Part shown: piece after piece, positions 40,854 to 59,807 of the stretch
How the letters are laid out: every line of letters begins with the position of its first letter
Numbering within the stretch: the stretch's first letter is position 1
Notes under the pieces: model-generated
Database searches by the model: none
Seen by the model: the letters and a program-made list of their open reading frames with translations, nothing else
Told to the model about the DNA's origin: nothing
Source: Ignisphaera aggregans DSM 17230
GTDB taxonomy: Archaea > Thermoproteota > Thermoprotei_A > Sulfolobales > Ignisphaeraceae
DNA length: 64,000 nucleotides
Assembly: GCA_000145985.1 (NCBI GenBank)
Contig: CP002098.1
Coordinates: forward strand, 186,001 to 250,000
Reading direction: 5' to 3'
Made by a program: the position numbers and the translations under genes

Positions 40854-40858
40854 TACAC

Positions 40859-42121: not shown

Positions 42122-43626
42122 TGATGAAGGTTCTACTTGTTGGATCCGGTGGAAGGGAGCACGCTTTAGCTACAATGATTAGATACAGTGCTATTAAGCC
42201 AAAACTCTATGTCGTTTCAGACTATCTGAATCCAGGGCTATATAGAGAGTCTGAGGAGAGTGGAGGGAGATTATATGTAGCAAATACCTCCAATCCATAT
42301 GAAGTGTTGAAAATTGTAGAAGAGGTTTCACCTGACCTCATAGTTATAGGGCCTGAAGAACCACAGTTTGCTGGGGTTGCAGATGTTTTGAGGGAAAAAG
42401 GATTTACGGTATTTGGAGCTGGAGCAAGGTGTGCAGAGATTGAGAAGAGTAAGGTTTTTGCAAGAACACTTATGTGGAAATACTCTATACCTGGGAGACT
42501 GTTTTTCAAAGCCTTTAGAGATGTTGATGAGGCTAGAACATTTATTGAATATGCAGGTGATGTTGTTATAAAACCTGCTAGACAGGCTGGTGGTAAGGGT
42601 GTAAAGGTTCTTAGAGATACAAAGGCATATCTATCTAGAGATGTTGGTGAGGTTAAGAAGAGCTATATAGATATTTTGCATAGACATATGGAGGAATACA
42701 AAGATATAGACTATAGAATTCTAGTTGAGCAGAGGGTTGAGGGTGTAGAGTATACAGTACAAGTGGTTACAGATGGTTCTACAGCTCTACCCCTACCCGT
42801 AATACAGGATCATCCACATGCATATGAATTTGATGTAGGTCCTGAGACAGGTGGTATGGGGAGCATAATGGGTCCTGGATGGACTTTACCCTTCATAACA
42901 TCTGATGAGTATAGAAAGAGTATAGAGATTGTTGAAGAGGTTCTTAGAGCTCTTCAGAAAGAGGTTGGAGATCAGTATCGTGGTGCTTTTGCAGGACAGA
43001 TGATGTTGACGGGTCTATGGGGACCGACAATAATAGAGTTCTATAGTAGGTTTGGAGATCCGGAGATATCTAATCTTGTCCCTGTTGTTGAAAGTGATTT
43101 TCTCGAAATTCTAGATAGGGCTGCTGAGGGTAGGCTTGCAGGGGTGAAGCTTTCTATAGATGAGGAGAAGGTTGTTATTGTAAAAGCAATTGCACCTGCT
43201 GGTTATCCAGATAGCAAGAAGCTTGCATCTGGTCATCCAATAGCTATAGATGATAGAGGTATTAGGGAGAAAGGCTGTATACCACTCTATGCAAGTATTG
43301 AGATGTCTAGCAATGGTGTTTTCTATACAAAGGGTTCTAGGGTTATAGAAATTGTGTGTAGTGGTAATAGCTATGAGGATGCATATAGAAGATCTGAGGA
43401 AGCTGTTAGATATGTTCAGACACTAGATGGATGGCCATTGTTCTACAGGAGTGATATAGGTTCACAGAAGCTTCTTGAGTATAGATCTAGAGTTGCTGAG
43501 AGGGTTAGAAGGGTATATCTGTCTAGAGCTAGGAGGGGTTTGTTGGGCGAGGCCATGGTATGGATACCTGGGCAGGGGATTTTGTCAAACCCCTTGTTAT
43601 CACCTATAAAGGTGGGTGGTCTATGA
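42121..43626 (+). CDS. purD: Phosphoribosylamine-glycine ligase
   Basis: Makes GAR from phosphoribosylamine, glycine and ATP. The 501-residue ATP-grasp protein has GSGGREHALA at the N-terminus, GPEEPQFAGVADVLREKG, VIKPARQAGGKGVKVL and the HPHAYEFDVGPETGGMGS signature. It is about 70 residues longer than bacterial PurD, with the extra length mostly at the C-terminus (about 425-501, many Arg). Its ATG shares one base with the upstream stop (TAATG). Confidence 0.93.
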   Translation: MMKVLLVGSGGREHALATMIRYSAIKPKLYVVSDYLNPGLYRESEESGGRLYVANTSNPYEVLKIVEEVSPDLIVIGPEEPQFAGVADVLREKGFTVFGAGARCAEIEKSKVFARTLMWKYSIPGRLFFKAFRDVDEARTFIEYAGDVVIKPARQAGGKGVKVLRDTKAYLSRDVGEVKKSYIDILHRHMEEYKDIDYRILVEQRVEGVEYTVQVVTDGSTALPLPVIQDHPHAYEFDVGPETGGMGSIMGPGWTLPFITSDEYRKSIEIVEEVLRALQKEVGDQYRGAFAGQMMLTGLWGPTIIEFYSRFGDPEISNLVPVVESDFLEILDRAAEGRLAGVKLSIDEEKVVIVKAIAPAGYPDSKKLASGHPIAIDDRGIREKGCIPLYASIEMSSNGVFYTKGSRVIEIVCSGNSYEDAYRRSEEAVRYVQTLDGWPLFYRSDIGSQKLLEYRSRVAERVRRVYLSRARRGLLGEAMVWIPGQGILSNPLLSPIKVGGL

Positions 43627-44837
43627 ATAGAAGGGAATATCTATCTACCCCAATGTTTGAAGGATCTATAAAGATCATGTTACTTGGAAGCGGTGAACTT
43701 GGTAAGGAAGTTGCTATAGAGGCACAGAGACTTGGTTTAGAGGTTATAGCTGTAGATAGATATGAATGGGCTCCAGCTATGCATGTTGCCCATAGGAGAT
43801 ATGTTATAGATATGCTTAATCCAAATGCTCTTAAAGCTGTTGTAAGAAAAGAGAAACCTGATGTTATAATACCTGAGATAGAGGCTATAGCTGTAGATGC
43901 TCTTGAGGAGCTAGAGTCTGAGGGATTCTATGTTGTTCCAAACGCTAGAGCTGTTAAGATAGCTATGAATAGGATAGAGCTTAGAAAATTTGCTGCTGAG
44001 GTACTAGGACTTCCAACAACTAGATATAGATTTGCTGAAAATCCTGATGAAGCTGTTGAGGCATGTGAGGAAGTCGGCATACCATGTCTTATAAAGCCTG
44101 AGATGAGTAGTAGTGGACATGGGCATGCAAAGGTATTGGATCCATCGCCAAAGGTTATAAGGGAAGCTTATGAATATGCTGTCTCACATGCTAGGGGAAG
44201 GAGTAGGAGGGTAATTGTAGAGGAGTTTGTGCAGCTAGAAACAGAATTCACAGTGCTGTCATATAGATATGTAGCAGATAATGGTGTTGTTACAGAGACA
44301 TGTGAACCTGTAGAGCATTGGAGATATGGAGAGTATCACTATATAGAGTCTTGGCAACCATCATCAAAACCTATGGATATACTAAATAAAGCTAGGGAGA
44401 TTGGAATAAGGGTTGCAAATGGTCTTGGAGGTTTTGGTATATTTGGTGTAGAGATATTTCTTACAAAAGATGGTAGAGTTCTATTTAGTGAAGTTGCTCC
44501 AAGACCACATGATACAGGTATGGTTACGATGGTTAGTCAAGAGCTTAGCGAATTTGCTATACATGTAAGAGCTGCTATAGGTCTACCAGTTCCAAAGCCT
44601 AAAGTAATATCTCCAGGGGCCAGTCTCGCTATATATGTTGATAAAGATGGTATATGGGCTCCAAAGGTATATGGGGTATACAATGCATTGAAGATACCTG
44701 GTGTAGATATTAGAATATTTGGAAAGCCGTTTACATATAAAGGTAGGAGGATGGCTGTATTGCTAGCTAGAGGATCAACAGTTGAGGAAGCTCTTGAGAA
44801 AGTTAGAAATGCCTCTAAATACACTTTTGTGGGGTGA
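43623..44837 (+). CDS. purT: Formate-dependent GAR transformylase
   Basis: Formylates GAR using free formate and ATP instead of formyl-folate. The frame opens at 43560, but ATG 43623 overlaps the purD stop as ATGA and matches the family start, giving 404 residues. [20 protein letters not shown] and [18 protein letters not shown] are PurT signatures; the ATP-grasp core has [18 protein letters not shown] and [17 protein letters not shown]. With PurP it makes the whole operon formate-based. Confidence 0.95.
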
Positions 44838-44842
44838 TCCCC

Positions 44843-45247
44843 ATGCCCTGTAAAGGTAAAGTAGCTATAATTGTTGGGAGTCAGAGAGATCTTCCCCATG
44901 CAGAAAAAGCGGCAGCTGTGTTAAAAGAACATGGAATTGAATATGAGATAAAGGTTTTGAGTGCACATAGAAATCCGAAGGAGCTTGAGGAATACATAAA
45001 TGTAGCAGATGTAGATCTATTCATAGCTATGGCTGGTCTAGCAGCACATCTACCAGGCTTTATAGCGTCAAGAACACAGAAGCCTGTTATAGGAGTTCCA
45101 CTAAATGTGGCTCTAGGAGGATTGGATGCCCTCTTGAGTATTGTTCAAATGCCTAGAGGAGTACCTGTAGCAACTGTAGGTATAGACAATGCTGAAAATG
45201 CTGCATATCTAGCTATCAGAATTCTAAGACTCTGTATGGAGAAATAG
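44843..45247 (+). CDS. purE: AIR carboxylase / N5-CAIR mutase PurE
   Basis: Produces CAIR. From ATG 44843 (GGTGA 44833-44837, with TGA as purT stop, five bases upstream) the protein has 134 residues. It contains [16 protein letters not shown], the [13 protein letters not shown] active-site helix and [17 protein letters not shown]. No purK is in the operon, so this PurE may take CO2 or bicarbonate directly; that is an inference from absence in the window. Confidence 0.93.
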
Positions 45248-45249
45248 AT

Positions 45250-46275
45250 ATGGCTGGCAATAATATTTGGACATACTCTAAAGCGGGTATAGATCTATCT
45301 AAGCATAGATCTATGCATAGATATGCCTTAGAGAACATCGCTAAGCTAGCCAAGGAGCTAGGGATTAACATCAAGAATATAGGGTCATACACAACATTTA
45401 TAGGTGTTGAAGGTGTTGATATAGCATTGCATGTTGATGGTGTTGGAACAAAAACAATTGTGTTAAGTAAGTTGAATAGATATGAGGTTATCGGATGGGA
45501 TTGTGTGGCTATGAACGTAAATGATGTTGTATGTGATGGTGCTAGACCTCTAGCTCTTATAGATTATATTGCTATGCCTAGAGATGATGAAGAGATTTTT
45601 AAGAGGATATTTGATGGTATTATAAATGCTGCGAGAATAGCGAGGGTAGCTGTTGTTGGTGGGGAGACAGCTATATTGCCAGATCTTGTAAATAGTGTTG
45701 ATGCTATCTGTATGGTTGTTGCGGTAAAGAGAAATAGTTTTGTTAATAGAGCTAGAAGAGGAGATATTGTTATAGGTGTAAATAGCTGGGGTCTTCATGC
45801 AAATGGCTATACACTTGTTAGAAGAGTTATTGAGTCTACGGTAAATAGCTATAATATCTCTATAGATGGTATAGATCTTGGAGAGGAATTGTCTAGACCA
45901 ACAGCAATATATTCAAATCTTGTTATGGAGGCTATAGAGCAAGGGCTTGTAAATTCTATTGCCCATATAACTGGTGGTGCTTTTAGAAAGGTTAAAAGGG
46001 TTCTGGGAGACGATCTCGATATGTATATCAGGATGCCTGAACCACCAAAAATATTTAGTTTGATTATGAAACTAGGCAATATCCCTGTCACTGAGATGTA
46101 TAGTGTTTTTAATATGGGTATAGGACTTGTATTTACAACTCCTATAGAGAAGGTTCAAAGTCTTATGGAATTGATAGAGAGAAACGGTTTTAATGCGTAT
46201 AAACTTGGTGAAGTTGTAAGTGGTTCAGGATCAATCTATATAGATACACCTTTTGGTGAGAAGCTTGAGCTCTAG
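45250..46275 (+). CDS. purM: AIR synthase
   Basis: Closes the imidazole ring (FGAM to AIR) with ATP. The 341-residue protein has [36 protein letters not shown] and [14 protein letters not shown], all PurM signatures, and ends in the typical [10 protein letters not shown] ... [13 protein letters not shown] 45250 lies two bases after the purE stop. Its last 11 bases overlap the next gene. Confidence 0.95.
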
Positions 46276-47374
46276 ATATTCCGTAAATGAGCTTCTTAAT
46301 GGATACGACACTAAGTCTATATCTATATCAACTATAGCAAGTCATTCAGCTTTAGATGTATTTGATGGTGCTAAGGACGAGGGCTTTAAAACTATAGCTA
46401 TATGTCAAAGGGGTAGGGAGAAACCATATCTAAGATTTAGGAGAATTATTGATATGCCTATAATACTGGATAGATTTGCTGATGTTATTAAACAAGATGT
46501 TATTGATATGCTTAGAAAAAACAATGCTATTTTCATTCCAAATAGAAGTTTTGCTGTTTATGTGGGATATGATAATATTGAGTCAAGGTTTCCTATACCA
46601 ATATTTGGTAATAGATATCTCCTTAGATATGAGGAGAGGGTTGGGGATAAGAACTATTACAAGATACTTGATTTAGCTGGTATAAGAAGACCAAAAACAT
46701 TTTCATCTCCAGATGAAATTGATAGACCTGTAATGGTCAAACTTCCACACGCTAGGAAGAGGGTTGAAAGAGGATTCTTTATAGCTATAGATAGAGATGA
46801 CTTTCAGAAGAGATTCAATAAACTTGTTGCTGATGGCATTATAAAGCCAGAGGATATGTCTAGAGCATCTATAGAAGAGCTTATAATTGGCGCTCATTTC
46901 AATGTCAATTACTTCAATAGTATCGCTAGAAAAGATGTAGAGATAATTAGCATTGACAGAAGACTACAGACAAATCTAGATGGATTTCTGAGAATGCCTG
47001 CAGATATACAGTTGGAGCTTAGAGATATAATGGATATCGAAATGATTGAAATAGGACATGAAATGGCTACCATTAGAGAGAGCATGCTTGAAAAGCTGTT
47101 TGAGATAGGCGATAAATTTGTTGAGGCAACAAAGATTATAGAGTCTCCGGGTATCATAGGACCATTCACCCTACAGCTAATGGTTACATCAGATCTAGAT
47201 GTAGTTGTATTTGATGTTGCTCCCAGAATTGGTGGTGGAACCAATGTTCACATGGGTATAGGTAGTCAATATAGTAAGCTCTACTTTGGAAAGCCTATCA
47301 GCATGGGGAGAAGGATTGCTATGGAGATAAGAGAATGCATAGAACTTAACTGTATTGATAAGATCATTACATAG
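46265..47374 (+). CDS. Divergent PurP paralog
   Basis: A 369-residue ATP-grasp protein of the PurP (FAICAR synthetase) family. Start TTG 46265 has GGTGA at 46255-46259 five bases upstream; TTG 46253 and GTG 46256 are alternatives. The fold is kept ([23 protein letters not shown] and the final GxGS-YSKL region), but the ATP-binding loop is [16 protein letters not shown] where PurP has KLPGAKGGRGYF. The C-terminal FEFSGRIVAGTN is here [12 protein letters not shown]. Normal FAICAR synthesis is doubtful. It may perform another late purine step. Confidence 0.82.
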
Positions 47375-47383
47375 GGTACGGAT

Positions 47384-48730
47384 ATGACGCTAGATATCTG
47401 TCCCCTTGAATGGAGATACGCTTCGCAGGAAATGAGATATATTTTCTCTAGAGAGAATTTCATTAATAAGATGATAGAAGTTGAAACAGCTATTATGAGA
47501 GGATTAGAGAAAAGTGGTTTTGCACCCAATGGATGTTGGGAGAGGATAGCCAAGGTTGCAGGGGCTATAAATCCCAGAGAGATTGATGAACTTGAAAAGA
47601 GGCTTGGACATGATGTAGCAGCTCTTGTAGCAATACTATCAGAGAGGGTTGGTATGCCATGTGGAAACTATGTGCATCTGGGAGCTACAAGCTATGATAT
47701 TGTTGATACAGCGTGGGCATTAGTATTGAGAGACGCCATCAACTTGGTTAAGAAGAAGCTTAGAAGGGTTATCGAAATACTAATTGATTTTGCCTATAGA
47801 TATAGAGATGTTGTTATGGTTGGAAGAACCCATGGTAAACACGCACTTCCTATAACATTTGGGTTTAAAATGGCTAACTATGTATATGAGTTCTCAAGAT
47901 CTTTTGAGAGGCTGTGTGATGTTGAGAAAAGGGTTGTTAGGGGTAAGATTGCAGGTGCTGTAGGTACAATGGCTGGATGGTTTGGTAAGGGGCTAAGTGT
48001 TGAGAAAGAAGCCCTTGAGTATCTAGGTCTAGAGTCTCATGCTATAGCTACACAGGTTGCACCAAGAGATGGTTTTGCAGAACTTGTATCAGCTCTAGCA
48101 ATACTTGGGTCACAACTAGATAGATTTGCTCTTGAGATTAGAGAACTTATGAGAGACGAAATTGCGGAGGTGTTTTACTCAGCTGGAGAGATTGGTAGTA
48201 GTGCTATGCCACATAAGAGAAATCCTACTACAGCTGAGAGGATATGTGGATTAGCAAAAATATTGAGGGGGCTTGTATTGACAGCCCTAGAAAATATACC
48301 ACTTATGCATGAGAGGGATTTGACTAATAGTAGTGCTGAAAGAATACTGATTCCACATGCATTTCTAGTGATAGATCAGATGCTTGAGGATATGCTATCC
48401 ATATTATCGAAACTGAGTATAGATGAAGCAAATATGATGAGGAATTTAGAGCTATCTAAAGGGAATATCATGAGCGAGTGTATAATGTCTAAACTCGTTT
48501 TGAAGGGAGGTGTGCCGAGGGTTCAAGCACATGAAATTATGAGGAAACTATCGAGAGAATCCTATGAAAAGGGTATTCATCTAAAGGAGGTAGTTTTATC
48601 AAGCGATATAGTCAAGATGTTAAGTGTTAATGATATTGAGGAGTGTTTTGACTATAGAAAATATCTTGGGAGCTATAACGAGTTGATAGATAGAGCTATA
48701 GAATATGCAAAAAATGCTATAGGGATTTAA
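47384..48730 (+). CDS. purB: Adenylosuccinate lyase
   Basis: Splits fumarate from SAICAR and adenylosuccinate. The 448-residue protein has the fumarase/aspartase signature GSSAMPHKRNPTTAERICG (about 281-299), MVGRTHGKHALPITFG with the catalytic His, and VHLGATSYDIVDTAW. It sits between the two purP-like genes, so SAICAR lyase and the formylating step are neighbours. ATG 47384 lies nine bases after the previous stop. Confidence 0.95.
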   Translation: MTLDICPLEWRYASQEMRYIFSRENFINKMIEVETAIMRGLEKSGFAPNGCWERIAKVAGAINPREIDELEKRLGHDVAALVAILSERVGMPCGNYVHLGATSYDIVDTAWALVLRDAINLVKKKLRRVIEILIDFAYRYRDVVMVGRTHGKHALPITFGFKMANYVYEFSRSFERLCDVEKRVVRGKIAGAVGTMAGWFGKGLSVEKEALEYLGLESHAIATQVAPRDGFAELVSALAILGSQLDRFALEIRELMRDEIAEVFYSAGEIGSSAMPHKRNPTTAERICGLAKILRGLVLTALENIPLMHERDLTNSSAERILIPHAFLVIDQMLEDMLSILSKLSIDEANMMRNLELSKGNIMSECIMSKLVLKGGVPRVQAHEIMRKLSRESYEKGIHLKEVVLSSDIVKMLSVNDIEECFDYRKYLGSYNELIDRAIEYAKNAIGI

Positions 48731-48731
48731 A

Positions 48732-49802
48732 ATGATTGATATTGATAAGATTTTAGAGAATTATGATCTCGATAAACTATCTATAGCTACACTTGCTAGC
48801 CATACATCTCTCCAGATAGTTCATGGAGCTAAGCTAGAGGGTTTTAAAACTATTGTTATTGTTCTTAGAGATAGGCTGTGGTTCTATGAACAGTTTAAAC
48901 ATTTAATTGATGAGTATATAGTTGTTGATAGTTGGAGAGATGTTTGTAGCAAGAATGTTGTATCCAGATTGAGAGAGTCTAACGCTGTTATGGTTCCCCA
49001 TGGTAGCTATGTTGAGTATATAGGGCTTGACTGTGCTGAGAATATCGAGGTTCCGATTTTTGGTCTCAGAGGTTTATTTAGAGTTGAGGCAGATCAACAT
49101 CTAAAGATGGATTTGTTAAAAAAGGCAGGTATTCCAATACCAAAGATATATAGTTTTGATGAGAATATTGATAGACCTGTTATAGTTAAGCTTCCTGGTG
49201 CAAAGGGTGGAAGGGGGTATTTTGTAGCTTCAGATAGTAAAAAGGTTTTTGATAAGCTTAAGACCTATGTTGATAGAGGTATTATAAAATCTATTGATGA
49301 AGCTATAATCCAGGAGTATCTAGTGGGTGTTACAGCATATTATCACTATTTCTATAGCCCTATACTAAATAGGTTAGAGATTATGGGTGCAGATATAAGA
49401 TATGAATCCGATATAGATGGGCTAAGGAGAATGCCTCTAGAGGTAATAAATGCTATTGGTATTGAACCAACATTTACTGTAGTTGGAAATATACCTCTTG
49501 TCCTAAGAGAAAGCCTATTGCCAAAAATACTGGAGTACGGACTAAGATTTGTTGAAGTAACAAAGAAATATATTCCGCCTGGTATTATAGGGCCATTCTG
49601 TTTAGAGAGTGTGATTGATAGGGATATGAATATAAAGGTCTTTGAGTTTTCTGGAAGGATTGTAGCTGGAACAAATATATATATCTATGGCAGTCCATAC
49701 TCATATCTATATTGGAATGAGCCTATGAGTACAGGTAGAAGAATTGCTAGAGAAATCAAATTAGCTATAGAGAAAAATATTATTAAAAATATTTTAACGT
49801 AA
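48732..49802 (+). CDS. purP: FAICAR synthetase (formate-AICAR ligase)
   Basis: Makes FAICAR from AICAR, formate and ATP without folate, the archaeal route. The 356-residue protein has all family features: LSIATLASHTSLQIVHGAK, the ATP loop VIVKLPGAKGGRGYFVAS, GVTAYYHYFYSPILNRLEIMG and FEFSGRIVAGTNIYIYGSPYSYL. Last gene of the operon; ATG 48732 follows the purB stop by one base. IMP cyclohydrolase (PurO or PurH) is not seen in the window. Confidence 0.93.
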   Translation: MIDIDKILENYDLDKLSIATLASHTSLQIVHGAKLEGFKTIVIVLRDRLWFYEQFKHLIDEYIVVDSWRDVCSKNVVSRLRESNAVMVPHGSYVEYIGLDCAENIEVPIFGLRGLFRVEADQHLKMDLLKKAGIPIPKIYSFDENIDRPVIVKLPGAKGGRGYFVASDSKKVFDKLKTYVDRGIIKSIDEAIIQEYLVGVTAYYHYFYSPILNRLEIMGADIRYESDIDGLRRMPLEVINAIGIEPTFTVVGNIPLVLRESLLPKILEYGLRFVEVTKKYIPPGIIGPFCLESVIDRDMNIKVFEFSGRIVAGTNIYIYGSPYSYLYWNEPMSTGRRIAREIKLAIEKNIIKNILT

Positions 49803-49810
49803 TATAGGGT

Positions 49811-50320
49811 TTACTTAGGTTTATAGAATGGATGTTCCACTTTATCCTTCTTCTCAAGTATTTCATCAATCTTTGGCTCTCCCGCCATAGCTCTTTTAAT
49901 AGCTAGTTTTGTTGCCTCATAGTTATATCTATAGATTTTATCTGGGTCTTTTGCAGCTGGATGTATAAATACTCCACATATAATGACGACATCATCTACA
50001 ATATCCTTTGGTATAACACCTTCAGCAACACTATCTGCAACAGCCTTGGCAACAGCATATTGAGCAGGCCCGAAGATTAATTCAGCTTGCTTCATATTCT
50101 TTATAGTAACCTTGGGTACTATTAGAGTAACAGGTTTTACAAGCAGATTAGGTGTTAATACAGCAAATAGTTTTGTATGGCCATATGATTGATGAGCTAA
50201 GCCAAATGCAAAGCCTATGCCTGCAGGACCATCTTTATCCCCTATGATTAAATCTATATGTGCTACTTCATTGCCTTCGCCCACTAGTGCTTCTCCAAAT
50301 CTCATGCCAATTTTTCCCAT
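49811..50320 (-). CDS. fae: Formaldehyde-activating enzyme (stand-alone)
   Basis: Condenses formaldehyde with tetrahydromethanopterin to methylene-H4MPT. The 169-residue protein has [20 protein letters not shown] with the catalytic His (about 21), [51 protein letters not shown] and the C-terminal HPFYKP. It lacks the Hps (hexulose phosphate synthase) fusion usual in many archaea, and no hps gene is near. It is convergent with purP (8 bp) and beside the pterin gene cluster. Confidence 0.92.
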
Positions 50321-50401: not shown

Positions 50402-51401
50402 ATGTTAATTGAGGGTTACTTTTTTGAGGTTGGTGGTAGAGATATATTCTATGTAAAGGGAATTGTAAATCCTCCTGGCGGCGTCATAGGGTTTCCTAAG
50501 TATATTAAGGATCCTAGTGGGGATAGAATTAATAGAAATGGTGAGAGATACAGAAAGATTCCTGGTATTGAAGATGAGATTCGCCATATCTTAAAATTCT
50601 ATCAAGGATTTATGAGATATGATGATTTTTTTCTGTGGAGAAATACCTATAATACCTATGGAAGTGATATCAAGGGTTTACGACCCTATAGCAAAGGCTA
50701 TGAATATTATAGAGCTTCGAAATGTTGATGGCGTAATAGGTGATGTAAGAGATATGGTTAGCGATATTATTAATGCTACAAATGTTAAGAGCATAGGTGT
50801 TTCAGGATCTATTCTTGTTGATTTATATAGAGAGGATTCTGATATAGATCTTGTTATCTATGGTGAAGAAGAGGGAAGGAGGGTCTATGAATATCTTTCA
50901 GAAGTTATAGATAAGGGTTCTTCACAGTATAGAAGATATAGCATAAATAATATTGAGAAGCTATTTAGAGAAAGATCAAAGGAAACACCAATAGATATAC
51001 ATGAGCTCTTAAAGCAGGAGAGTAGAAGGGTATTGGAGGGGTTTTATAGAAATAGAGAGTATTTCATAAGATTAGTAAGATATCCAGGAGAGGATGAGCT
51101 TTATGGTACATACAAATGTGTTAAAATTGGTAGAGTAGTTGTAAAGCTTATGGTGGTAGACGATCGTTATGCTATCTATACACCTTGTAGATATGGTGTA
51201 GAGGTAATTGAGATTATTGAGGGCGAAAATATTGATATAGATGAGGTATATACATTACGAGGGAGATTTATAGATGTAGCTAAACAGGATGATATAATTA
51301 TAGCTTCTGGAACTGTTGAAAAGATAATGTTTAGAAGTGGTAGGATAGTATATAGACTTTACCTAGGTAGTAAGGGTGACTATGTTATCAGAATTAAGTA
51401 A
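50402..51401 (+). pseudogene. Archaeal nucleotidyltransferase split by a one-base frameshift
   Basis: Two overlapping frames encode halves of one protein: 50402-50728 (N-terminal, starting MLIEGYFFEVGGRDIFYVKG) and 50619-51401 (C-terminal, with nucleotidyltransferase motif GSILVDLYREDSDIDLVIYG). Dropping one T from the T7 run at 50626-50632 joins them as RYDDFFCGEIPIIPMEV, giving about 332 residues like archaeal COG1665-type proteins. The catalytic Asp pair is kept, so the gene may still work by slippage, or this is a recent mutation or sequence error. Function unknown; the neighbourhood suggests the pterin pathway. Confidence 0.75.
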
Positions 51402-51447: not shown

Positions 51448-52092
51448 ATGATGGATGAAATTGAAGTGTATAGATTATTATTGAGTATGGGTTTTAGTGA
51501 GGATACATTTATTGAGAGTGTTGTATTGGTGAGGAGGAATAGTGATATTATCAATGTTTTACCACTGGGTTTGAGATATGATTATAGAGGTTTCTTATTA
51601 GCAAAGATATATAGGGGATCGCGAACCTATGACATAATATCAAAGGGGTTAGCAAATAAATTCACTATATGTTTGACACAGAAACCGGAGACATTTTTCT
51701 ATGCAATTTTTAGAAAGGATATAATAATCAATACGTTTAATGAGGCTAAATGTCCTAGAAAGTTATGTGATGCATGTATTGATACAGAGATTAAATCTAT
51801 TGAACAGGGAGAGGATTATTTGAGAGTTGAGTTGAAACCTGTAAATATAACCATATCTCAGGGATATCCAAAGGGCTTTACAAGAGCTTCAGCTGCAATA
51901 ATAGAAGCACTGGTTTATTATACTAAGCTTCCCTTTGTTAGTGATGATGAGAAGAGGAAGTATGTTGAGAGGATTAAGATTATGAGAGAGATAGTATATA
52001 GATCTTCGAAGAAGGATATGTATAGAGAGATGATAGATAATATTGTAGATAGAGCAATGAGATATATAGCATATACTGGGGATGTGAGATAA
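51448..52092 (+). CDS. DUF447 family protein (flavin-binding split-barrel type)
   Basis: A 214-residue protein with the DUF447 pattern: ESVVLVRRNSDIINVLPLG, then FLLAKIYRGSRTYDII and a C-terminal helical part (SAAIIEALVYYTKL ... EIVYRSSKKDMYREMID). The first half resembles flavin reductase-type split barrels. DUF447 genes recur beside methanopterin biosynthesis genes in archaea and methylotrophs (from memory), in keeping with this cluster. The exact reaction is not known. ATG 51448 or 51451. Confidence 0.75.
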   Translation: MMDEIEVYRLLLSMGFSEDTFIESVVLVRRNSDIINVLPLGLRYDYRGFLLAKIYRGSRTYDIISKGLANKFTICLTQKPETFFYAIFRKDIIINTFNEAKCPRKLCDACIDTEIKSIEQGEDYLRVELKPVNITISQGYPKGFTRASAAIIEALVYYTKLPFVSDDEKRKYVERIKIMREIVYRSSKKDMYREMIDNIVDRAMRYIAYTGDVR

Positions 52093-52093
52093 G

Positions 52094-53269
52094 ATGCGTG
52101 TAGCGGGTATTGATCCAGGTACTAAATCTTTTGATATAGTTGTGGTAGAGGATGATAGAGTTGTATTTGAGAAGAGCATTGAGACTATAGAAATTGCTAA
52201 AGATCCTCAGATTCTCATAGACGCACTTAGAGATTTATCTGTAGACTATATCGTAGGTCCTTCAGGATACGGTGTACCGGTTACATTTGGTAATGAGATT
52301 TTAGATCCTAGGAGATTTGCTGTTGAGATACTATTGCTTAGTACGGAAGAGGATATTGAGAATGGTGTAAAAATTGGTGAGATAGGGATATGGGTTTATG
52401 ATGCACTTGCAAAGGTTGTTACATATCTGGTTAACCACTATAGAGATAGAGTTCTATTCATACCCTCTGTCATACAGTTGCAAACAGTTCCGTGGTATAG
52501 AAAGATAAATAGGATTGATATGGGAACTGTTGATAAATTGGCTTCAGCATTTCTAGCTATATACAATGAAAGTATTAGAGAGTCGAAGAGCTTAAATGAT
52601 ATTAATATCATTGTAGCTGAAATTGGTTTTGGATATATAGGTATTATAGCTGTAAAAGAGGGGAGAGTAGTAGATGGTATTGGAGGTACATATGCATCTA
52701 TAGGTACATTAACAGCAGGTGCTATGGATCTAGAGGTAGTTGTTGGTGTGAAGAGATGGAATAGGTGGGATGTATTCCACGGAGGAGTATTTTGGACTTC
52801 TAATACATTTGATTTAGAGGATCTTATTAGAGCTTATAAAAATTCTGAAGAGCCATTGGCATCACTATATCTCTCCTTTATTGAGGGTATAGCAAAAGAT
52901 ATTGCTAGAGCTATGACGGTGGTACCAAGGGTTGATAAAGTAGTTTTGACTGGTAGATATAGTAGGAATAGAGATATAGTTAAACATCTTCTAGAGCTTG
53001 TTAGAGATGTTGAAATAGCAGGGATACAGGGTTTAAAAGGTGCAGTAATAAGTAAGGAGGCGGGTCAAGGATATGCTGCAATAGGTGAGGGTATTGTAGG
53101 TGGATATTTTGCTGATATTGTAGATCATATGAAGATAAAAGAGGCATGTGGTACTGTTGTAGATTATGTAGTTCATCAAGCAGCTAAAGGATTTAGGGAG
53201 AGGATTATAAAGGCGTATAGAGATTTGGTTAAGAATCCAAGGTTTTGTGAAAAACTCTATATACGATAG
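52094..53269 (+). CDS. DUF1464 family ASKHA-fold protein (predicted kinase)
   Basis: A 391-residue protein of the sugar kinase/actin fold. VAGIDPGTKSFDIVVVEDD (3-21) is the phosphate-1 loop, EIGFGYIGIIAVKEGRVVDGIGGTYAS the second phosphate loop, and VDKVVLTGRYSRNRDI the adenosine motif. DUF1464 proteins were once called predicted butyrate kinases, but the position here, one base after DUF447, points to the pterin cofactor pathway. Substrate unknown. Confidence 0.78.
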   Translation: MRVAGIDPGTKSFDIVVVEDDRVVFEKSIETIEIAKDPQILIDALRDLSVDYIVGPSGYGVPVTFGNEILDPRRFAVEILLLSTEEDIENGVKIGEIGIWVYDALAKVVTYLVNHYRDRVLFIPSVIQLQTVPWYRKINRIDMGTVDKLASAFLAIYNESIRESKSLNDINIIVAEIGFGYIGIIAVKEGRVVDGIGGTYASIGTLTAGAMDLEVVVGVKRWNRWDVFHGGVFWTSNTFDLEDLIRAYKNSEEPLASLYLSFIEGIAKDIARAMTVVPRVDKVVLTGRYSRNRDIVKHLLELVRDVEIAGIQGLKGAVISKEAGQGYAAIGEGIVGGYFADIVDHMKIKEACGTVVDYVVHQAAKGFRERIIKAYRDLVKNPRFCEKLYIR

Positions 53270-53287
53270 CTATATCTTTATCACTAT

Positions 53288-53683
53288 CTATTCTTCTTCA
53301 ATAATATCCTCAATATATGCTAGGGTATAGTCTAGCTCTGGTATATATCTTAGTCTTGCCTTGACCTTAGTTTTTCCATAGCTAGTAACTATAGTTACAT
53401 CAAGATTTCTTGACCTGAGGGTTGTATATCTATAGGGATTATCATCCTTTGGTATATCTATTGATATACTGACCTTAGCCTCGGATTTAAATGGCTGTGA
53501 AAGTATGGCATATTCAATAACTTTTTCAAGAAGCTTTACCTCTTCCTCAAACTTTATTGGTATACCCATGAATTGATGTATAACCATTCCAAGTGCTATA
53601 CCGGCTTCAAAAACTGCTCTATCTCTATTGCTAACCTTTGGAGAGAAGTATATTTTTGCAGGGTCAGAGCTATGTTCATCCAT
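53288..53683 (-). CDS. mptD: Archaeal 7,8-dihydroneopterin aldolase
   Basis: Cleaves dihydroneopterin to 6-hydroxymethyl-dihydropterin in the methanopterin route (DUF372 family). The 131-residue protein has YFSPKVSNRDRAVFEAGIAL (12-31), GMVIHQFMGIPIKF with the conserved His, and YRYTTLRSRNLDVTIVTSYG near the end, then LDYTLAYIEDI. Its ATG overlaps the upstream flavoprotein stop by 8 bases, so both are co-translated. Confidence 0.88.
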   Translation of the reverse strand: MDEHSSDPAKIYFSPKVSNRDRAVFEAGIALGMVIHQFMGIPIKFEEEVKLLEKVIEYAILSQPFKSEAKVSISIDIPKDDNPYRYTTLRSRNLDVTIVTSYGKTKVKARLRYIPELDYTLAYIEDIIEEE

Positions 53684-54428
53684 TTTCTATTACCTCACGA
53701 ATTTTTTCCATTAGTTCACTAACATTACTAGCTACATATGTATATCTCTGTTTTTTAAGAATATCTATATTCCTAAGATCTATATCTCTAGGCTCTAAAT
53801 ATATCTTCTCCCAACATTTCACAGCTTTAAAAGGACATGCATACATACATTTCTCACAACCTATACATTTAGATAGATCTATCCTAGGAAATCCCTCGAT
53901 AATTGTAATGGCATTTACAGGACAAATATCTTTAGCTAGACATTTAGTACAATTATATGTTTTACACACATCTCTATCTACATGACATGGAGTTTCAGTA
54001 ACAATATAACCGCTTTCACTAGGTATATCTGTTGGAAGAATATACACATTGACACCTCCTTTTACAGCTTGAGCATATAGAGCTGATGCAATGTTATCTG
54101 CAATTCCATTAACAATTTTTGCAATAGTGTTTGCAGTTGCAGGAGCTATTACTAAAGCAGTATATCTCCTAAGATTTAGACGTCCAATATAATACATACC
54201 TTCGTCCTCAACCAGAAACTCTTCATAATATCCTCCACTAGCTATATTTCTAACAATAGGCAGAACACCAAATATCCTAGATACTTCATATCCCCATCTA
54301 GTCATAAACACTGTTATCTTGATATTATAGATGTTTTTGATATTCGCCATAGATTTGACTATCTCTCTCAAGTTTGCTCCTCCACCAGTTATACACCAGG
54401 CTATAGACTTCAATGTATAACACCTCAA
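53676..54428 (-). CDS. Dihydromethanopterin reductase-like flavoprotein with two [4Fe-4S] motifs
   Basis: A 250-residue fusion. Residues 1-165 are an archaeoflavoprotein/phosphopantothenoylcysteine decarboxylase-type FMN domain (AWCITGGGANLREIV, APATANTIAKIVNGIADN). Residues about 165-215 are a ferredoxin module with CxxCxxxxxCP and CIGCEKCMYACPF. This matches the DmrB/DmrX group, which reduces dihydromethanopterin to the active tetrahydro form. It overlaps mptD, with which it forms a two-gene operon. Confidence 0.82.
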   Translation of the reverse strand: MRCYTLKSIAWCITGGGANLREIVKSMANIKNIYNIKITVFMTRWGYEVSRIFGVLPIVRNIASGGYYEEFLVEDEGMYYIGRLNLRRYTALVIAPATANTIAKIVNGIADNIASALYAQAVKGGVNVYILPTDIPSESGYIVTETPCHVDRDVCKTYNCTKCLAKDICPVNAITIIEGFPRIDLSKCIGCEKCMYACPFKAVKCWEKIYLEPRDIDLRNIDILKKQRYTYVASNVSELMEKIREVIENG

Positions 54429-54491
54429 TATCTTGATAGGATAAAGATCTATATTTCTTCAAATGTTTTATTGTTATAGGTAGTATAGTAT

Positions 54492-56054
54492 ATGGCAAGA
54501 ATACTTATTGTTACAGGTAAAGTTGCAGAACCTATGATTAGAGACATAGTTAAGAGGGTAGATAAGCATAGGGTAGATGTATTTGTTGCACCAGTACCTA
54601 TAGCTGCTTTTATTACACCTGAATATGTCGTCTCTATTCTTTCGAATAGCAATATAGATGTAAAAAGCTATGATATTATAATGCTACCTGGACTCTGCAA
54701 AGGAAGTGCTAGGATTATCGAAGAGAAACTCGGTGTAAAAGCTGTTAAGGGACCAACAAATGCTTATGATTTATTAGAGGTTTTAAAACTAGATGACTTC
54801 TCCCTATTATCTCCAGATGAACCTGCAGATAACGTTATGGGTAATGTTTTACGATCCTTAGCAAAATCGCTACTAAGTGATGTAGAGAGAGAGGTATGTA
54901 AGAGGGAATGTATTTATATAGGAAAGCTAAAGGTCCCCATAACACCACCTCCCATGAGAATTGCCACAGAGGTCTGTGAGGCTCATATCTATAGAGATGA
55001 AGATATCATTAAGAAGGTAGAGCAGTATATAGATAGTGGAGCTGACATAATAAGTATAGGCTTTGAAGCACTAGAACCACATCCAGATCATGTTGAAAGG
55101 ATTATAAAGCTCATTAGAAAATGTTATGATATTCCTATAGCTATTGATACTTCTATACCAAGTGAGATAATAAGGGGTATTGAGGCAGGAGCTGATATGG
55201 TTATAAATATAACGCTACAGAACATCGAAGAAGTATATAAGTATCTAAGGGATGTAGCAATAGTTGTTATACCATTTGATACTGAAACCAAGACTATTCC
55301 TATGTCAATAGATAGAAGGATAGAAATTTTAGAGAAGACTATCGATGTATTAAAGCAAAAGGGTATTGAAAAAATATTTGCTGATATAGTTCTAGATCCT
55401 CCAGGCTCTACATTAGCTTCATTAATAGGATTCTACGAATTTAAGAGGAGACATCCAGATATACCTTTATTCATGGGTATAGGAAATGTTACTGAGTTAA
55501 TAGATGCTGATAGTATAGGGGTTAACGCTATAATGGCAATGTTTGCTCAAGAGATTGGTGCAAGTATACTGCTCACTGTTGAGAAAAGCCCTAAGGCAAG
55601 AGGTTCAACTCTTGAACTAAAAATAGCTACACAAATGGCTACTATTTCCTATGTCAAAAAATCTCTTCCTAAAAATCTAGGGATAGATCTTCTAGTTGTT
55701 AAGGATAAGAGAAGATACGATATAGACTTTGGTGAAGAGGTTGATGAAACTATATTAGCAACAAATGAAGATATGCAATATTCACTTGACCCTCTTGGAA
55801 TATTTAAGATTAGAGTAAATCATGATGAAGGTGTAATAGAAGCTCTATATATTGGGAGGAAGGGAAAGATATTGATAAAGGGAAGAACAGCTAAAGCTAT
55901 CAGAAATGAGATATTGTCAAGGGGTTTAATATCACAATTATCTCACGCTTTCTATCTAGGGATGGAATTAGCTAAAGCTGAAGAGGCTTTAAGATTAGGT
56001 AAAAACTATATACAGGAATTTCCATTATTTAAAAAGTTGGAGTATATTAAATAG
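54492..56054 (+). CDS. Dihydropteroate synthase-like protein of methanopterin synthesis
   Basis: A 520-residue protein. An N-terminal Rossmann-like domain (about 1-140, LPGLCKGSARIIEEKLGV) precedes a DHPS-type TIM barrel (about 160-390) with GADIISIGFEALEPHPDHV and PIAIDTSIPSEIIRGIEAGADMVIN. The remaining C-terminus (about 400-520) is specific to archaeal homologs. It should join hydroxymethyl-dihydropterin-PP to ribofuranosylaminobenzene phosphate. Followed by the RFAP synthase gene after 9 bases, a fitting pair. Confidence 0.85.
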   Translation: MARILIVTGKVAEPMIRDIVKRVDKHRVDVFVAPVPIAAFITPEYVVSILSNSNIDVKSYDIIMLPGLCKGSARIIEEKLGVKAVKGPTNAYDLLEVLKLDDFSLLSPDEPADNVMGNVLRSLAKSLLSDVEREVCKRECIYIGKLKVPITPPPMRIATEVCEAHIYRDEDIIKKVEQYIDSGADIISIGFEALEPHPDHVERIIKLIRKCYDIPIAIDTSIPSEIIRGIEAGADMVINITLQNIEEVYKYLRDVAIVVIPFDTETKTIPMSIDRRIEILEKTIDVLKQKGIEKIFADIVLDPPGSTLASLIGFYEFKRRHPDIPLFMGIGNVTELIDADSIGVNAIMAMFAQEIGASILLTVEKSPKARGSTLELKIATQMATISYVKKSLPKNLGIDLLVVKDKRRYDIDFGEEVDETILATNEDMQYSLDPLGIFKIRVNHDEGVIEALYIGRKGKILIKGRTAKAIRNEILSRGLISQLSHAFYLGMELAKAEEALRLGKNYIQEFPLFKKLEYIK

Positions 56055-56063
56055 GGTTTTAAT

Positions 56064-57038
56064 ATGAAGGTAGTTGTAGATGCACCATCAAGATTGCATT
56101 TGGGATTCTATAACTTTTTTGAGGATGGAATAGCATATGGGGGTCTTGGTGTAGCTATTGAGGAGCCAAAATTTTTAGTAAGGCTATGGAGATCAAACAA
56201 ATTTGAAATTAGTAATGAGACTGGGGTAGAGCTAAGTGATATAATAGGGAAAGTAGTTGAGAAGTTTAATATCATGAACATAGGTATATCGATTGAAAAA
56301 GCTATACCGAGACATGTAGGTCTAGGTTCTACAACTCAAGGGATATTAAGTCTTGGGTATGGTATTTCTAAGCTATTCAACTTTAACTATAGTGTAAGGG
56401 ATATAGCACTTATGTTTGGTAGGGGAAGAGATTCTGGGATAGGTATAGCTGTTTTTGAAAAAGGAGGATTTGTTGTCGATTCAGGGAGAAGGATAGATGG
56501 TATAGTTGAACCCCCTAAAGATCTTAAAGATCTTCCACTACCCATAATCAGAAAGGTTATTCCAAGAAACTGGTATTTTCTTGTGTTTATTCCAAAAGGT
56601 ATTAGAGGGTTGGATGAAGTAACAGAGAGGAGGGCTATGGATCAACCCTCTCCTCTTCCAAAGGATTTGCAGTACGAATTATATAAATTGGTTTTGCTAC
56701 ACATCTTACCATCAATAGATAGAAGAGATATTGTTGTATTTGGTAAGGCAATTACCAAGCTACAGGTTATTGTTGGAACATATTTTTCTAGGTATCAAAA
56801 GGGTATATATTGTTGTGAAGAAACAGAGATAATCATAAATTCGCTATTGAGCCACGGTGCTCATGGTGCTGGACAAAGTAGCTGGGGACCTACAGCATAT
56901 GGCATTGTCGAAGGGAGAAAAAGAGCATTGAGAATCCTAGACAAGGTTCTTAACGATATCTATAGAAAGGGTTTTGAATGTCACTATATGGTTGTTAGAG
57001 CGAGGAACTATGGAGCGGAGATATCATGGGAAGAATAA
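56064..57038 (+). CDS. mptG: Beta-ribofuranosylaminobenzene 5'-phosphate synthase
   Basis: RFAP synthase condenses PRPP with 4-aminobenzoate, losing CO2 or hydroxybenzoate chemistry being excluded, to start the arylamine side of methanopterin. The 324-residue GHMP-fold protein has PSRLHLGFYNFFEDGIAYGG (9-28), PRHVGLGSTTQGILSLG (GHMP loop) and GRGRDSGIGIAVFEKGG. The late GAHGAGQSSWGPTAYG matches the second phosphate-binding region. Strong family match; the acceptor acid could differ. Confidence 0.88.
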   Translation: MKVVVDAPSRLHLGFYNFFEDGIAYGGLGVAIEEPKFLVRLWRSNKFEISNETGVELSDIIGKVVEKFNIMNIGISIEKAIPRHVGLGSTTQGILSLGYGISKLFNFNYSVRDIALMFGRGRDSGIGIAVFEKGGFVVDSGRRIDGIVEPPKDLKDLPLPIIRKVIPRNWYFLVFIPKGIRGLDEVTERRAMDQPSPLPKDLQYELYKLVLLHILPSIDRRDIVVFGKAITKLQVIVGTYFSRYQKGIYCCEETEIIINSLLSHGAHGAGQSSWGPTAYGIVEGRKRALRILDKVLNDIYRKGFECHYMVVRARNYGAEISWEE

Positions 57039-57085
57039 CTTATATTTTGAAGACCAAGTTCTTATTGGACATATTTTATTGGAAA

Positions 57086-57838
57086 TTATTGTGGTATCAG
57101 CTTAATATCATTGATACCTGTATCTGAGAGAGAATACATCTCTACACCTTTTCTAATTAGCCTTAAGATAAGCTTTTTAGCTATATCCAATTTTATCATC
57201 TTAATCCTTGGATCCTTTTCTCTTCCTATAGCTGAATATTTACCGATAGGCCCGTTAAAATTCATACCTCCTAAAATAAATCTCTTAACGCCAAGACCAT
57301 AGGCAATATATATTGCTCTATCTCCATCTGTAAAACCACCAAAGTTATATACATATGGCCTTGGCTCTACCTGTGTAGTCCCTATGATATATCCCTTGAA
57401 TCTCAATACATTAAAGAGTCTGTCAATGTTATCCCCATGAGCATGAACAAATATGTATACACCAAATCTACTAAGATACTCTATATCATTTAGATTTCCA
57501 TCGAGATCTGTAACAATTGCTGTAGGAATAATCCCTATCTCTAATAGATATGAAGATGCACCATCAGATACAAATATAGGGATATTCCTAATCAAATCAT
57601 TTTTCTCAGCAACATCAACATCTTTCTCAAGGCTTGGTCCTGCACCAAAGACTATAGCTACTCCTCTTGCCGAAATTATTCTAGAAATATCATTAGGGTG
57701 TATCACATTAATAGCTTTTTGAAGAATAGAGCTTAGAGTATCTGTTGAGATTTGATCCATATCAAAATTTAGTGGAAGAACACTTCTAATCCAGAGGTAT
57801 ATCTTATTCCACTCATCACGATCTATATACCAGTTCAT
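57086..57838 (-). CDS. mptE: 6-hydroxymethyl-7,8-dihydropterin pyrophosphokinase (archaeal type)
   Basis: Archaeal HPPK replacement (DUF115 family). From ATG 57838 (GGTGG just upstream; ATG 57856 is also in frame) the protein is 250 residues. VAIVFGAGPSLEKDVD, FVSDGASSYLLEIGIIPTAIVTDLDGN and FGGFTDGDRAIYIAYGLGVK are the family signatures. It activates the pterin with ATP for the DHPS-like enzyme encoded on the other strand nearby. Confidence 0.9.
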   Translation of the reverse strand: MNWYIDRDEWNKIYLWIRSVLPLNFDMDQISTDTLSSILQKAINVIHPNDISRIISARGVAIVFGAGPSLEKDVDVAEKNDLIRNIPIFVSDGASSYLLEIGIIPTAIVTDLDGNLNDIEYLSRFGVYIFVHAHGDNIDRLFNVLRFKGYIIGTTQVEPRPYVYNFGGFTDGDRAIYIAYGLGVKRFILGGMNFNGPIGKYSAIGREKDPRIKMIKLDIAKKLILRLIRKGVEMYSLSDTGINDIKLIPQ

Positions 57839-57952
57839 TTTGACCACCTTTTGCATTGGTGGAAGAGGTAAAGAGTGTGGAGTATTTTATTCTCTTCATA
57901 TTCAGAGCTTTACATTCATCCATTTACTTAGAGTTTTAATAAGCTTAGGATG

Positions 57953-58813
57953 CTAGAGGCCTAACTCAATTAGTTGTTCTAATGTTGTTTTCTTATATGC
58001 ATAGAGATTATGTGGATGTATACTTTCATAACTTTCAACTTCAACCTCTATAATAGTCTGTTTATCAAAACTCTTTATCTCTTTACCTATATTCCATATC
58101 GCTTCTCTTACAACATCCTCAATAAACATGGGCTTCTTATGAGCTTCTAAAACAAGTTTAGCTTCTTGAGTTCTCTTCAGAAGGGTGAATGTAGGTGCTG
58201 AGACACTATTAAATAGTGTTCTCGCTATCTTTTCTATTCCTATGAAGTTGCCCCTAGATATGATTCTACCTTTGAGCACTACTCTCTGCATATGGCTAGG
58301 AGCAATCTCAATATTTTGATTTAACATTGATGCTATTGACTCTTTAGCGCTGGGACATACTGTTATACCCTTTACCCCTACACTAAGTTTCCAAAATCTC
58401 TCGCCATTTCTTAGCCTCTCTACCTCTACCTCTATCTCTATTGGTTCAAGTCCTCTAATTCCATGGTACTCTATTTCAATATAATATGTTAGTTTTGCAT
58501 TGACAATAGCTCTCTTAATATATTCATGTTTCTCCAAAAGTTTTAGAGCCATTGCATCTAGATACTCTTCAATTGTCTTAGCCTCATATCTCTCTTCAAT
58601 AACCTCTAATAGAGCTTCAGCAGTTCTAGATAGATGTACACCCCTCCTACTACTATCAACATCTACATATAGACTTATATCGGCATCTAATGCAATAGAA
58701 CCTTTATCTGTCCTTAGCACAAGTTTTCTTCTCACATTTTTAAACCCCAGCATCTCAATATCTATTGATATTGTAGGTTCTTTATCCTGAAGCTCCATTT
58801 TGTCAACAACCAC
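57953..58813 (-). CDS. mptA: GTP cyclohydrolase MptA (FolE2 type)
   Basis: First step of archaeal pterin synthesis: GTP to 7,8-dihydroneopterin 2',3'-cyclic phosphate. The 286-residue tunnelling-fold protein has RRGVHLSRTAEALLEVI (about 56-72), GITVCPSAKESIA with the metal-binding Cys, and PSHMQRVVLKG. The cyclic phosphodiesterase MptB that would follow is not in the window. Start is GTG 58813 or ATG 58798. Lies 20 bp after the MetE-like gene. Confidence 0.9.
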   Translation of the reverse strand: MVVDKMELQDKEPTISIDIEMLGFKNVRRKLVLRTDKGSIALDADISLYVDVDSSRRGVHLSRTAEALLEVIEERYEAKTIEEYLDAMALKLLEKHEYIKRAIVNAKLTYYIEIEYHGIRGLEPIEIEVEVERLRNGERFWKLSVGVKGITVCPSAKESIASMLNQNIEIAPSHMQRVVLKGRIISRGNFIGIEKIARTLFNSVSAPTFTLLKRTQEAKLVLEAHKKPMFIEDVVREAIWNIGKEIKSFDKQTIIEVEVESYESIHPHNLYAYKKTTLEQLIELGL

Positions 58814-58832
58814 CTTATCCCTATACCTCGGT

Positions 58833-59807
58833 TTAAGATATGTGGAATTGCTTTATAGCTTTGACTATATTCTCAAGCTTCTTTATAGCTACCATATACT
58901 CTCTTTCCTCATCTTTTAACACACCTCTAAAGCCACCAAAACCACAATCACCAGAGATAAGATCTATACGACCACCAGTTTTCTCATAAGATTTTCTCAA
59001 TATCTCTAAGATGTTGTCTAACTCCTCTATCTGAATCTTCTTTGCACTAACAACACCTGGCGATATAATCTTATCATATTTTTCAATAATTGTTCTATCT
59101 ATAACTTCAAGATTTTCCGATGTATCATGGAATTCTAAGCTTATATATCTTATCCTAGGTGCTTGTGCTACTACTTCAAGGATTTTCCTATGTATTGGTC
59201 CACATATATGGATACCAAATTCAACACCTCCTATACTGCTTACCCTATCCAGATATTCAACTATATCTTCTTCCCTATAGTTAAACAGCATTCTTCTCCT
59301 GCCAATTACAAGAGATAGCGATGGTTCATCTATAAATATTATATTGTAGCCTAGTTCAGCTACATATCTAACCATATTTTCAACGAATCCTATGAAGAAC
59401 ATCTTTAAAATATCTTTATTAGCTAAAGCTGTAGATGAAATTCCCTTGGAGATATCCTCCGATAGATAGATACGTGAAGCTAATGTGAATGCCCCTGTTA
59501 TTGGAGCTCTAATACCCTTAAACACAATGTTTCTCTCTCTAATATACTTCATCGCTATTTCTGCATCGTCTATGTGAAAATATCTAACTTTTGTTAGATC
59601 TAATAGTTCTTCTCGTGAGAAGAAAAATTCTCTATTCCTATATACCACTCCATGTATTTCTAACGGCTGGAGATAGATTTCAATGAAACTTCTTAGCTGG
59701 GGATATGGCGGCACATCTAGACCTATCTTCGCCATATCATCAATAATACGTCTAATATTTTCATCACTATAACTAAGTGGAAAGCTTCCAACATGGCTAC
59801 TCCTCAT
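58833..59807 (-). CDS. Core MetE-like methionine synthase
   Basis: A 324-residue protein equal to only the C-terminal catalytic half of cobalamin-independent methionine synthase. SSHVGSFPLSYS opens it; zinc ligands appear as His200 and Cys202 (HICGP), Glu225 (SLEFHD) and Cys288 (GDCGFGG). It lacks the N-terminal half that binds polyglutamyl-folate. Such short enzymes in archaea methylate homocysteine from methyl-pterins or a corrinoid protein. Being in the pterin cluster, methyl-H4MPT-type donors are a good guess. Confidence 0.85.
   Translation of the reverse strand: MRSSHVGSFPLSYSDENIRRIIDDMAKIGLDVPPYPQLRSFIEIYLQPLEIHGVVYRNREFFFSREELLDLTKVRYFHIDDAEIAMKYIRERNIVFKGIRAPITGAFTLASRIYLSEDISKGISSTALANKDILKMFFIGFVENMVRYVAELGYNIIFIDEPSLSLVIGRRRMLFNYREEDIVEYLDRVSSIGGVEFGIHICGPIHRKILEVVAQAPRIRYISLEFHDTSENLEVIDRTIIEKYDKIISPGVVSAKKIQIEELDNILEILRKSYEKTGGRIDLISGDCGFGGFRGVLKDEEREYMVAIKKLENIVKAIKQFHIS

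Follow-up and report, generated by a model that had tools for sequence, protein, structure and literature searches.

Ignisphaera aggregans is an anaerobic, fermenting hyperthermophile (PMC3035270), and the DNA considered here is a window of 64,000 nucleotides, positions 186001 to 250000 of its single-contig genome of 1,875,953 bases. A compact block of pterin genes in this window is probably a locus for both the biosynthesis and the use of a one-carbon (C1) carrier resembling tetrahydromethanopterin (H4MPT), with the DUF1464 protein as one of the pathway enzymes. An earlier, sequence-only reading had proposed such a cofactor cluster and is largely right but incomplete; its new element is DUF1464, very likely an H4MPT pathway gene shared by archaea and bacteria.

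Searches with Pfam and NCBIfam profiles recovered, in place, all of the genes named in that reading, and the four alternating transcription units that it had described were confirmed: nucleotidyltransferase (NT)-DUF447-DUF1464 on the + strand, MptD-DmrB on the − strand, the DHPS-like gene and RFAP synthase (RFAPS) on the + strand, and MptE-MptA-MetE on the − strand. The genes from DUF447 onward are as follows, in window coordinates.

51448-52092, + strand: DUF447 protein (PF04289 and PF20766 above cut-off)
52094-53269, + strand: DUF1464 copy A, predicted ASKHA-fold kinase (PF07318, 273.6 bits, above cut-off)
53288-53683, − strand: MptD, archaeal dihydroneopterin aldolase (PF04038, 119.5 bits, cut-off 25)
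53676-54428, − strand: DmrB-like flavin/Fe-S protein (TIGR02700, 194 bits; 4Fe-4S domains; 8-nucleotide overlap with MptD)
54492-56054, + strand: DHPS-like enzyme with DUF6513, pterin-binding and PterinBD domains (TIGR00284, 422 bits, cut-off 257)
56064-57038, + strand: RFAPS (MptG) homologue, copy A (TIGR00144, 146 bits, cut-off 113.5)
57086-57856, − strand: MptE-like 6-hydroxymethylpterin diphosphokinase (PF01973, 84.9 bits, cut-off 34.6)
57953-58813, − strand: MptA, archaeal GTP cyclohydrolase (TIGR00294, 222.9 bits, cut-off 220)
58833-59807, − strand: core MetE, catalytic domain only, 324 amino acids (PF01717, 25.5 bits, cut-off 21)

The pterin half of the pathway is complete as regards MptA, MptD and MptE, each of which exceeds its Pfam or NCBIfam cut-off. 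The DmrB-like protein stays below the cut-off of the DmrB equivalog profile TIGR02700 (194 vs 251), which is still its best match and spans its full length.

Association of DUF1464 and DUF447 with pathway genes

The distribution of the two families was determined in 121 evenly drawn Thermoproteota genomes. To keep out weaker matches, which are likely to be other GHMP kinases, RFAPS was scored as present only where E was under about 1e-15. DUF1464 occurred in 40 genomes, all 40 of which had an RFAPS homologue, and RFAPS accompanied DUF447 in 45 of 46 genomes, the exception being a partial match. Of the 41 DUF1464 genes, 23 had a pathway gene within 5 kb, against an expectation of about 1.6, and of the 46 DUF447 genes 25 did, against about 1.8; with each genus entered a single time, this held in 13 of 25 genera for DUF1464 (1 expected) and 16 of 25 for DUF447. 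These expectations treat gene placement as random and genera as independent, and the p-values are therefore no more than indicative. The earlier proposal that both families are pathway members is thus supported by co-occurrence and neighbourhood alike. Their occurrence independently of the mpt genes, which that proposal had named as evidence that would speak against it, was not borne out in the 121 genomes, given these counts and the strong neighbourhood. We consider it very likely that DUF1464 belongs to the pathway.

The association is not uniform. DUF1464 often adjoins DHPS or MptD, not RFAPS, is absent from several RFAPS-bearing genomes, and had no match in the methanogen controls Methanocaldococcus jannaschii and Methanosarcina acetivorans. 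No replacement for it was identified near RFAPS in the DUF1464-negative genomes, where only a membrane protein, possibly a transporter, recurs; it stands beside the DUF447-RFAPS-DHPS operon at six of eight such loci (our locus labels L228-L234 and L050). PurA, which lies near RFAPS in one family, was rejected as a substitute because a DUF1464-positive genome has it too.

A pattern scan of GTDB returned 293 DUF1464 relatives, and neighbourhoods were drawn from the best 80. An H4MPT or related C1 gene was found within 5 kb at 37 of these 80 loci, and DUF1464 lies within bacterial H4MPT clusters, adjoining the DHPS-like gene, Ftr, MtdB or Mch, in Chloroflexota, Acidobacteriota, Caldisericota and a deltaproteobacterium. 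The order in the deltaproteobacterium (L205) is FhcB, FhcA, an HPPK-MptA fusion, PTPS, DHPS-like, DUF1464, Ftr, FhcC, Mch, RimK and CitG, and clusters of Thermoleophilia (L223) and Anaerolineae (L214) look similar. The Caldisericota cluster (L184) comprises DUF447, RFAPS, an HPPK-MptA fusion and DmrB-like, DHPS-like and DUF1464 genes. In Archaeoglobi (L165), RFAPS is divergent from a DHPS-DUF1464 pair, and in metagenome-assembled genomes (MAGs) of Methanosarcinales (L159) it is followed by two DUF1464 genes. DUF447 also occurs within bacterial clusters with Mch, Ftr and Fhc.

Other features of these clusters may be recorded here. The fusion of HPPK (FolK) to an MptA-type cyclohydrolase (L184, 2531-4003; L205, 2479-3933) apparently stands in for MptE in the bacterial clusters. 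PTPS-like genes recur in DUF1464/H4MPT clusters (L152, L175, L199, L202, L205 and L214), where they perhaps replace MptB or MptD. CitG, a triphosphoribosyl-dephospho-CoA synthase-like protein, directly adjoins DUF447 at two loci (L243, 4118-5826; L244, 18092-19770) and could be the enzyme of the second ribosylation in methanopterin synthesis.

The open-access literature searched held no paper on DUF1464, COG2441, COG2457, PF07318 or PF04289. DUF447 has been linked to cannulae in Pyrodictiaceae (PMC13140500). The MAG behind that claim, Pyrodictium sp. DIMAG01 (L156), also carries DUF1464, so that cofactor synthesis fits its DUF447 better than cannulae do, and the published link is probably mistaken.

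Predicted function of DUF1464 and its pairing with RFAP synthase

The AlphaFold model of DUF1464 (pLDDT 93) had butyrate and acetate kinases as its best matches in the PDB (E about 1e-14, TM 0.57-0.59, 16% identity), and ROK sugar kinases and N-acetylmannosamine kinases were also among the fold matches. Scores against the butyrate kinase families remained below their cut-offs (NF002834, 42 vs 222; TIGR02707, 30 vs 289). The glycine-rich, Asp and Lys motifs are invariant in 79 sequences, the invariant or nearly invariant residues being G5, D7-T10, S12, D142, G144-T145, D147-K148, E176, G178, D212, E214, G287-R288 and K321. In a sequence alignment, D142 falls in the stretch corresponding to the catalytic-helix region of butyrate kinase, and we infer that it may be catalytic. 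On the predicted fold, DUF1464 is probably a kinase. Structures are available for relatives of DUF447 (2iml and 2ptf), which we take to be FMN proteins, and the DUF447 gene is found between or beside those for RFAPS, DHPS and CitG; tentatively, it might carry out a reduction such as that of the ribosyl to a ribityl chain.

Where DUF1464 might act is indicated by a second gene pair. Elsewhere in the Ignisphaera genome a second RFAPS (598.3-599.3 kb) overlaps a second DUF1464 by 8 nucleotides (L032, 10340-12440; genome 598340-600440), an operon that had gone unnoticed. Co-directional, often overlapping RFAPS-DUF1464 pairs in the same order occur at L032 itself and at L015, L020, L033, L034, L159, L160 and L162. 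In trees of 59 RFAPS and 54 DUF1464 sequences, RFAPS-B and DUF1464-B form supported clades with nearly matching inner branching (Ignisphaera copy 2, G017, Methanosarcinales and a Desulfurococcales-type group). Because the spread of the pair cuts across the species tree, its two genes appear to have moved together, and this co-inheritance is the strongest sign that DUF1464 may act next to RFAPS.

To our knowledge, several steps of methanopterin biosynthesis still lack an enzyme, and we know of no gene assigned to the phenol kinase step described below. According to a passage in PMC3261824 (citing White 2011), the arylamine is made from phosphorylated β-ribofuranosylhydroxybenzene 5′-phosphate (β-RFH-P) by way of a succinyl intermediate, and the bifunctional PurB of M. 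jannaschii releases β-ribofuranosylaminobenzene 5′-phosphate (β-RFA-P). A phosphorylated β-RFH-P in this route implies a kinase for the phenol. In the pathway that we propose, MptA, MptD and MptE would build the pterin half, RFAPS would couple 4-hydroxybenzoate (or p-aminobenzoate, pABA) to phosphoribosyl pyrophosphate (PRPP), and DUF1464 would phosphorylate an early intermediate on the way to the arylamine, for which the phenol of the RFAPS product, β-RFH-P, is the likeliest choice. Aspartate would then replace the phenol oxygen and PurB would free the aniline; the DHPS-like enzyme would link the pterin and arylamine halves, reductions would fall to the flavoproteins DmrB and possibly DUF447, and the finished carrier would bear an arylamine-ribosyl side chain. 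DUF1464 fits the phenol kinase by its predicted fold, its pairing with RFAPS and its nearness to DHPS, although we put forward its identity with the missing kinase for β-RFH-P only as a tentative and rather doubtful assignment. One of the steps without an enzyme gains a named candidate in DUF1464, a conserved, undescribed ASKHA-fold protein that four or more bacterial phyla carry in their H4MPT clusters.

Alternatively, DUF1464 might be a kinase of a later step, acting on the ribosyl or ribityl side chain or on a lineage-specific tail and not on the phenol. We regard this as a serious possibility, if not the one to be expected. The sugar kinases among the fold matches are in keeping with it, as is the frequent position of DUF1464 next to DHPS or MptD, and its absence from several RFAPS-bearing genomes and the methanogen controls fits a lineage-specific tail. 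On the other hand, the co-inherited RFAPS-B/DUF1464-B pair has no later pathway gene alongside, which points to a step next to RFAPS, and a tail confined to crenarchaea is hard to square with the occurrence of DUF1464 in several bacterial phyla.

Several observations weigh against reading the block as an H4MPT-type locus with DUF1464 as one of its enzymes. The other 43 of the best 80 DUF1464 loci had no pathway gene within 5 kb, although many of them belong to H4MPT-using lineages, and DUF1464 was not seen in the Azospirillum H4MPT cluster (L146). The fold by itself does not give the substrate, and M. jannaschii, whose PurB acts in the phenol route, has no DUF1464 match, so that the phosphorylation would fall to a different enzyme in that organism. 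Several of the searches of the Ignisphaera genome used 20 kb stretches that jointly span it, each taken singly, so that a match crossing an edge could be missed or split. Among these, tblastn with bacterial queries found no match for Mch, Ftr, FhcA, FhcB or MtdB. MetF (PF02219) was absent from the genome. MptB, which the earlier reading had not seen either, was not identified by an HD-motif search made without an MptB reference sequence; the genome has several HD-domain open reading frames, none of which NCBIfam names MptB. Finally, the window RFAPS fails the equivalog profile NF040726 (164 vs a cut-off of 328 bits), and in an alignment of 59 homologues it has N17 and I23 where the Methanothermobacter thermautotrophicus enzyme has D19 and R26, an alteration that the sequence-only reading had also missed.

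The altered residues raise the question of which RFAPS copy serves the pathway. Copy B likewise scores below the NF040726 cut-off (145 bits vs 328) and keeps D and R at the two sites; the same split is seen in several related two-copy genomes. In the methanogen enzyme both residues have been probed by mutagenesis: D19N retains some activity, and R26K chiefly raises the KM for pABA (PMC6787355). Since the window copy departs from the methanogen enzyme at two such positions, the main RFAPS activity may reside in the paralogue outside the cluster. One could go further and suppose that the RFAPS-B/DUF1464-B pair at 598 kb does the first step and that copy A has moved to another PRPP-dependent ribosylation. 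We find this conceivable but doubtful, since single-copy relatives are altered at these positions as well (Trp in L247; Asn/Lys in L248), and the Asn/Lys of L248 correspond to changes that leave some activity in the tested enzyme, so that copy A may still work. Moreover, the genome has a CitG gene at 1553 kb whose product could equally be responsible for the second ribosylation.

Adjoining genes and probable use of the carrier

Three further genes lie ahead of DUF447 in window coordinates.

47384-48730, + strand: PurB, adenylosuccinate lyase (TIGR00928, 420 bits; single copy by tblastn)
49811-50320, − strand: Fae, formaldehyde-activating enzyme (PF08714, 252 bits; TIGR03126, 264 bits, cut-off 118)
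50402-51401, + strand: NT gene, broken (PF01909, 28.9 bits; frames 50402-50728 and 50619-51401)

Fae, a user of H4MPT that the sequence-only reading overlooked, is encoded on the divergent strand, with 81 bp between its gene and the block, and is 55% identical to the Azospirillum Fae. Upstream lies a purine operon (39483-49802) with PurF, PurD, PurT, PurE, PurM, two PurP and PurB; it has two PurF-like genes, the second of which covers only part of the PurF model. Its PurT and PurP are formate-using, as expected where 10-formylfolate is lacking.

Could the product be folate or another pterin, with RFAPS-like, DUF447 and DUF1464 proteins serving some other C-ribosyl compound? Haloferax, which uses folate (PMC8305020), has DUF447 and an RFAPS homologue, so that having both is not in itself proof of an H4MPT-like product, and the loss of D19 and R26 from the window RFAPS would be compatible with a different role. 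We nonetheless judge this improbable, for Fae, an enzyme of H4MPT chemistry, adjoins the block, DUF1464 and DUF447 are embedded in bacterial clusters that carry Mch, Ftr and Fhc, the RFAPS-B paralogue retains both residues, and purine synthesis is of the formate-using kind.

An H4MPT-like carrier would thus have several users. ThyX and SHMT are present in the genome besides Fae and the core MetE, with ThyX about 8 kb from the second RFAPS/DUF1464 pair. The core MetE has an HxC motif (HIC, residues 200-202) and a later Cys (GDCG, 286-289), the zinc-ligand pattern of MetE; its gene is separated from mptA on the same strand by 19 nucleotides, and a second MetE gave no tblastn match elsewhere in the genome. 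Promoter and terminator scans gave no signal above chance. The methanofuran genes MfnB and MfnF had no match in the genome, and an FhcC-like match at 339 kb, found without support from FhcA, FhcB or Ftr, was set aside as a presumed glutamate-synthase-type domain. Fae and SHMT would load formaldehyde or serine carbon on the carrier, and ThyX and MetE would spend it. Because these users were found, other C1 genes were unmatched and purine synthesis is formate-based, the carrier's probable role is in methionine, thymidylate and serine/glycine metabolism, where Fae would capture formaldehyde. The earlier claim that the organism makes its own H4MPT-like carrier is supported by gene content, since most of an H4MPT-type pathway and these users are present, and the pterin itself is a predicted product. 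The locus indicates that a fermenting crenarchaeon possesses Fae and draws on an H4MPT-like carrier to make methionine and thymidylate, while having neither methanogenesis nor a full formaldehyde-oxidation route.

The NT gene had been assigned a start at 50619; the gene is present, but it begins at 50402 and its frame changes midway. The frameshift lies in a run of seven T near 50627, intact relatives align over both frames, and the upstream frame matches their N-terminus; the break may be genuine or may stem from faulty sequencing. Its suggested membership in the pathway is less well supported. NT abuts DUF1464 in seven genomes of the Sulfolobus family (f5), including Sulfolobus acidocaldarius, and is close to mpt genes in a few others, and 47 of the 57 NT-bearing genomes among the 121 also have RFAPS. 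A generally pathway-specific role was rejected, because the other 10 lack RFAPS and most copies lie away from mpt genes.

Comparison with known systems

With H4MPT synthesis in the methanogen M. jannaschii, the Ignisphaera genes share MptA, MptD, MptE, the RFAPS family, the DHPS-like TIGR00284 enzyme, a DmrB-like protein and DUF447; they differ in the presence of DUF1464 and in the lack of Mch and Ftr matches by tblastn. The bacterial H4MPT/methanofuran clusters (the Azospirillum plasmid, L146; Methylobacterium extorquens) likewise have RFAPS, a DUF6513/DHPS-like protein, DUF447, Fae and a CitG homologue, together with a dihydroneopterin aldolase that is of another family, whereas their FhcA, FhcB, Ftr, Mch, MtdB, MfnB and MfnF are without match in Ignisphaera. 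S. acidocaldarius, representing the modified folate ('sulfopterin') of Sulfolobus, also has DUF1464, DUF447, RFAPS, MptE and the DHPS-like enzyme, and its family pairs DUF1464 with the same NT family; there, however, the genes are scattered, DUF1464 is shorter (about 300 amino acids) and MptD has no match.

DUF1464 shares with the acetate and butyrate kinases of the ASKHA group the fold, the N-terminal phosphate motif and the later glycine-rich motifs, but it has its own invariant motif IDxGTxDK, a TM-score of only 0.5-0.6, an identity of about 16%, and scores far under the butyrate kinase cut-offs. If DUF1464 is indeed the phenol kinase, it would represent a new ASKHA activity common to archaea and bacteria, with an unrelated enzyme in its place in methanogens.

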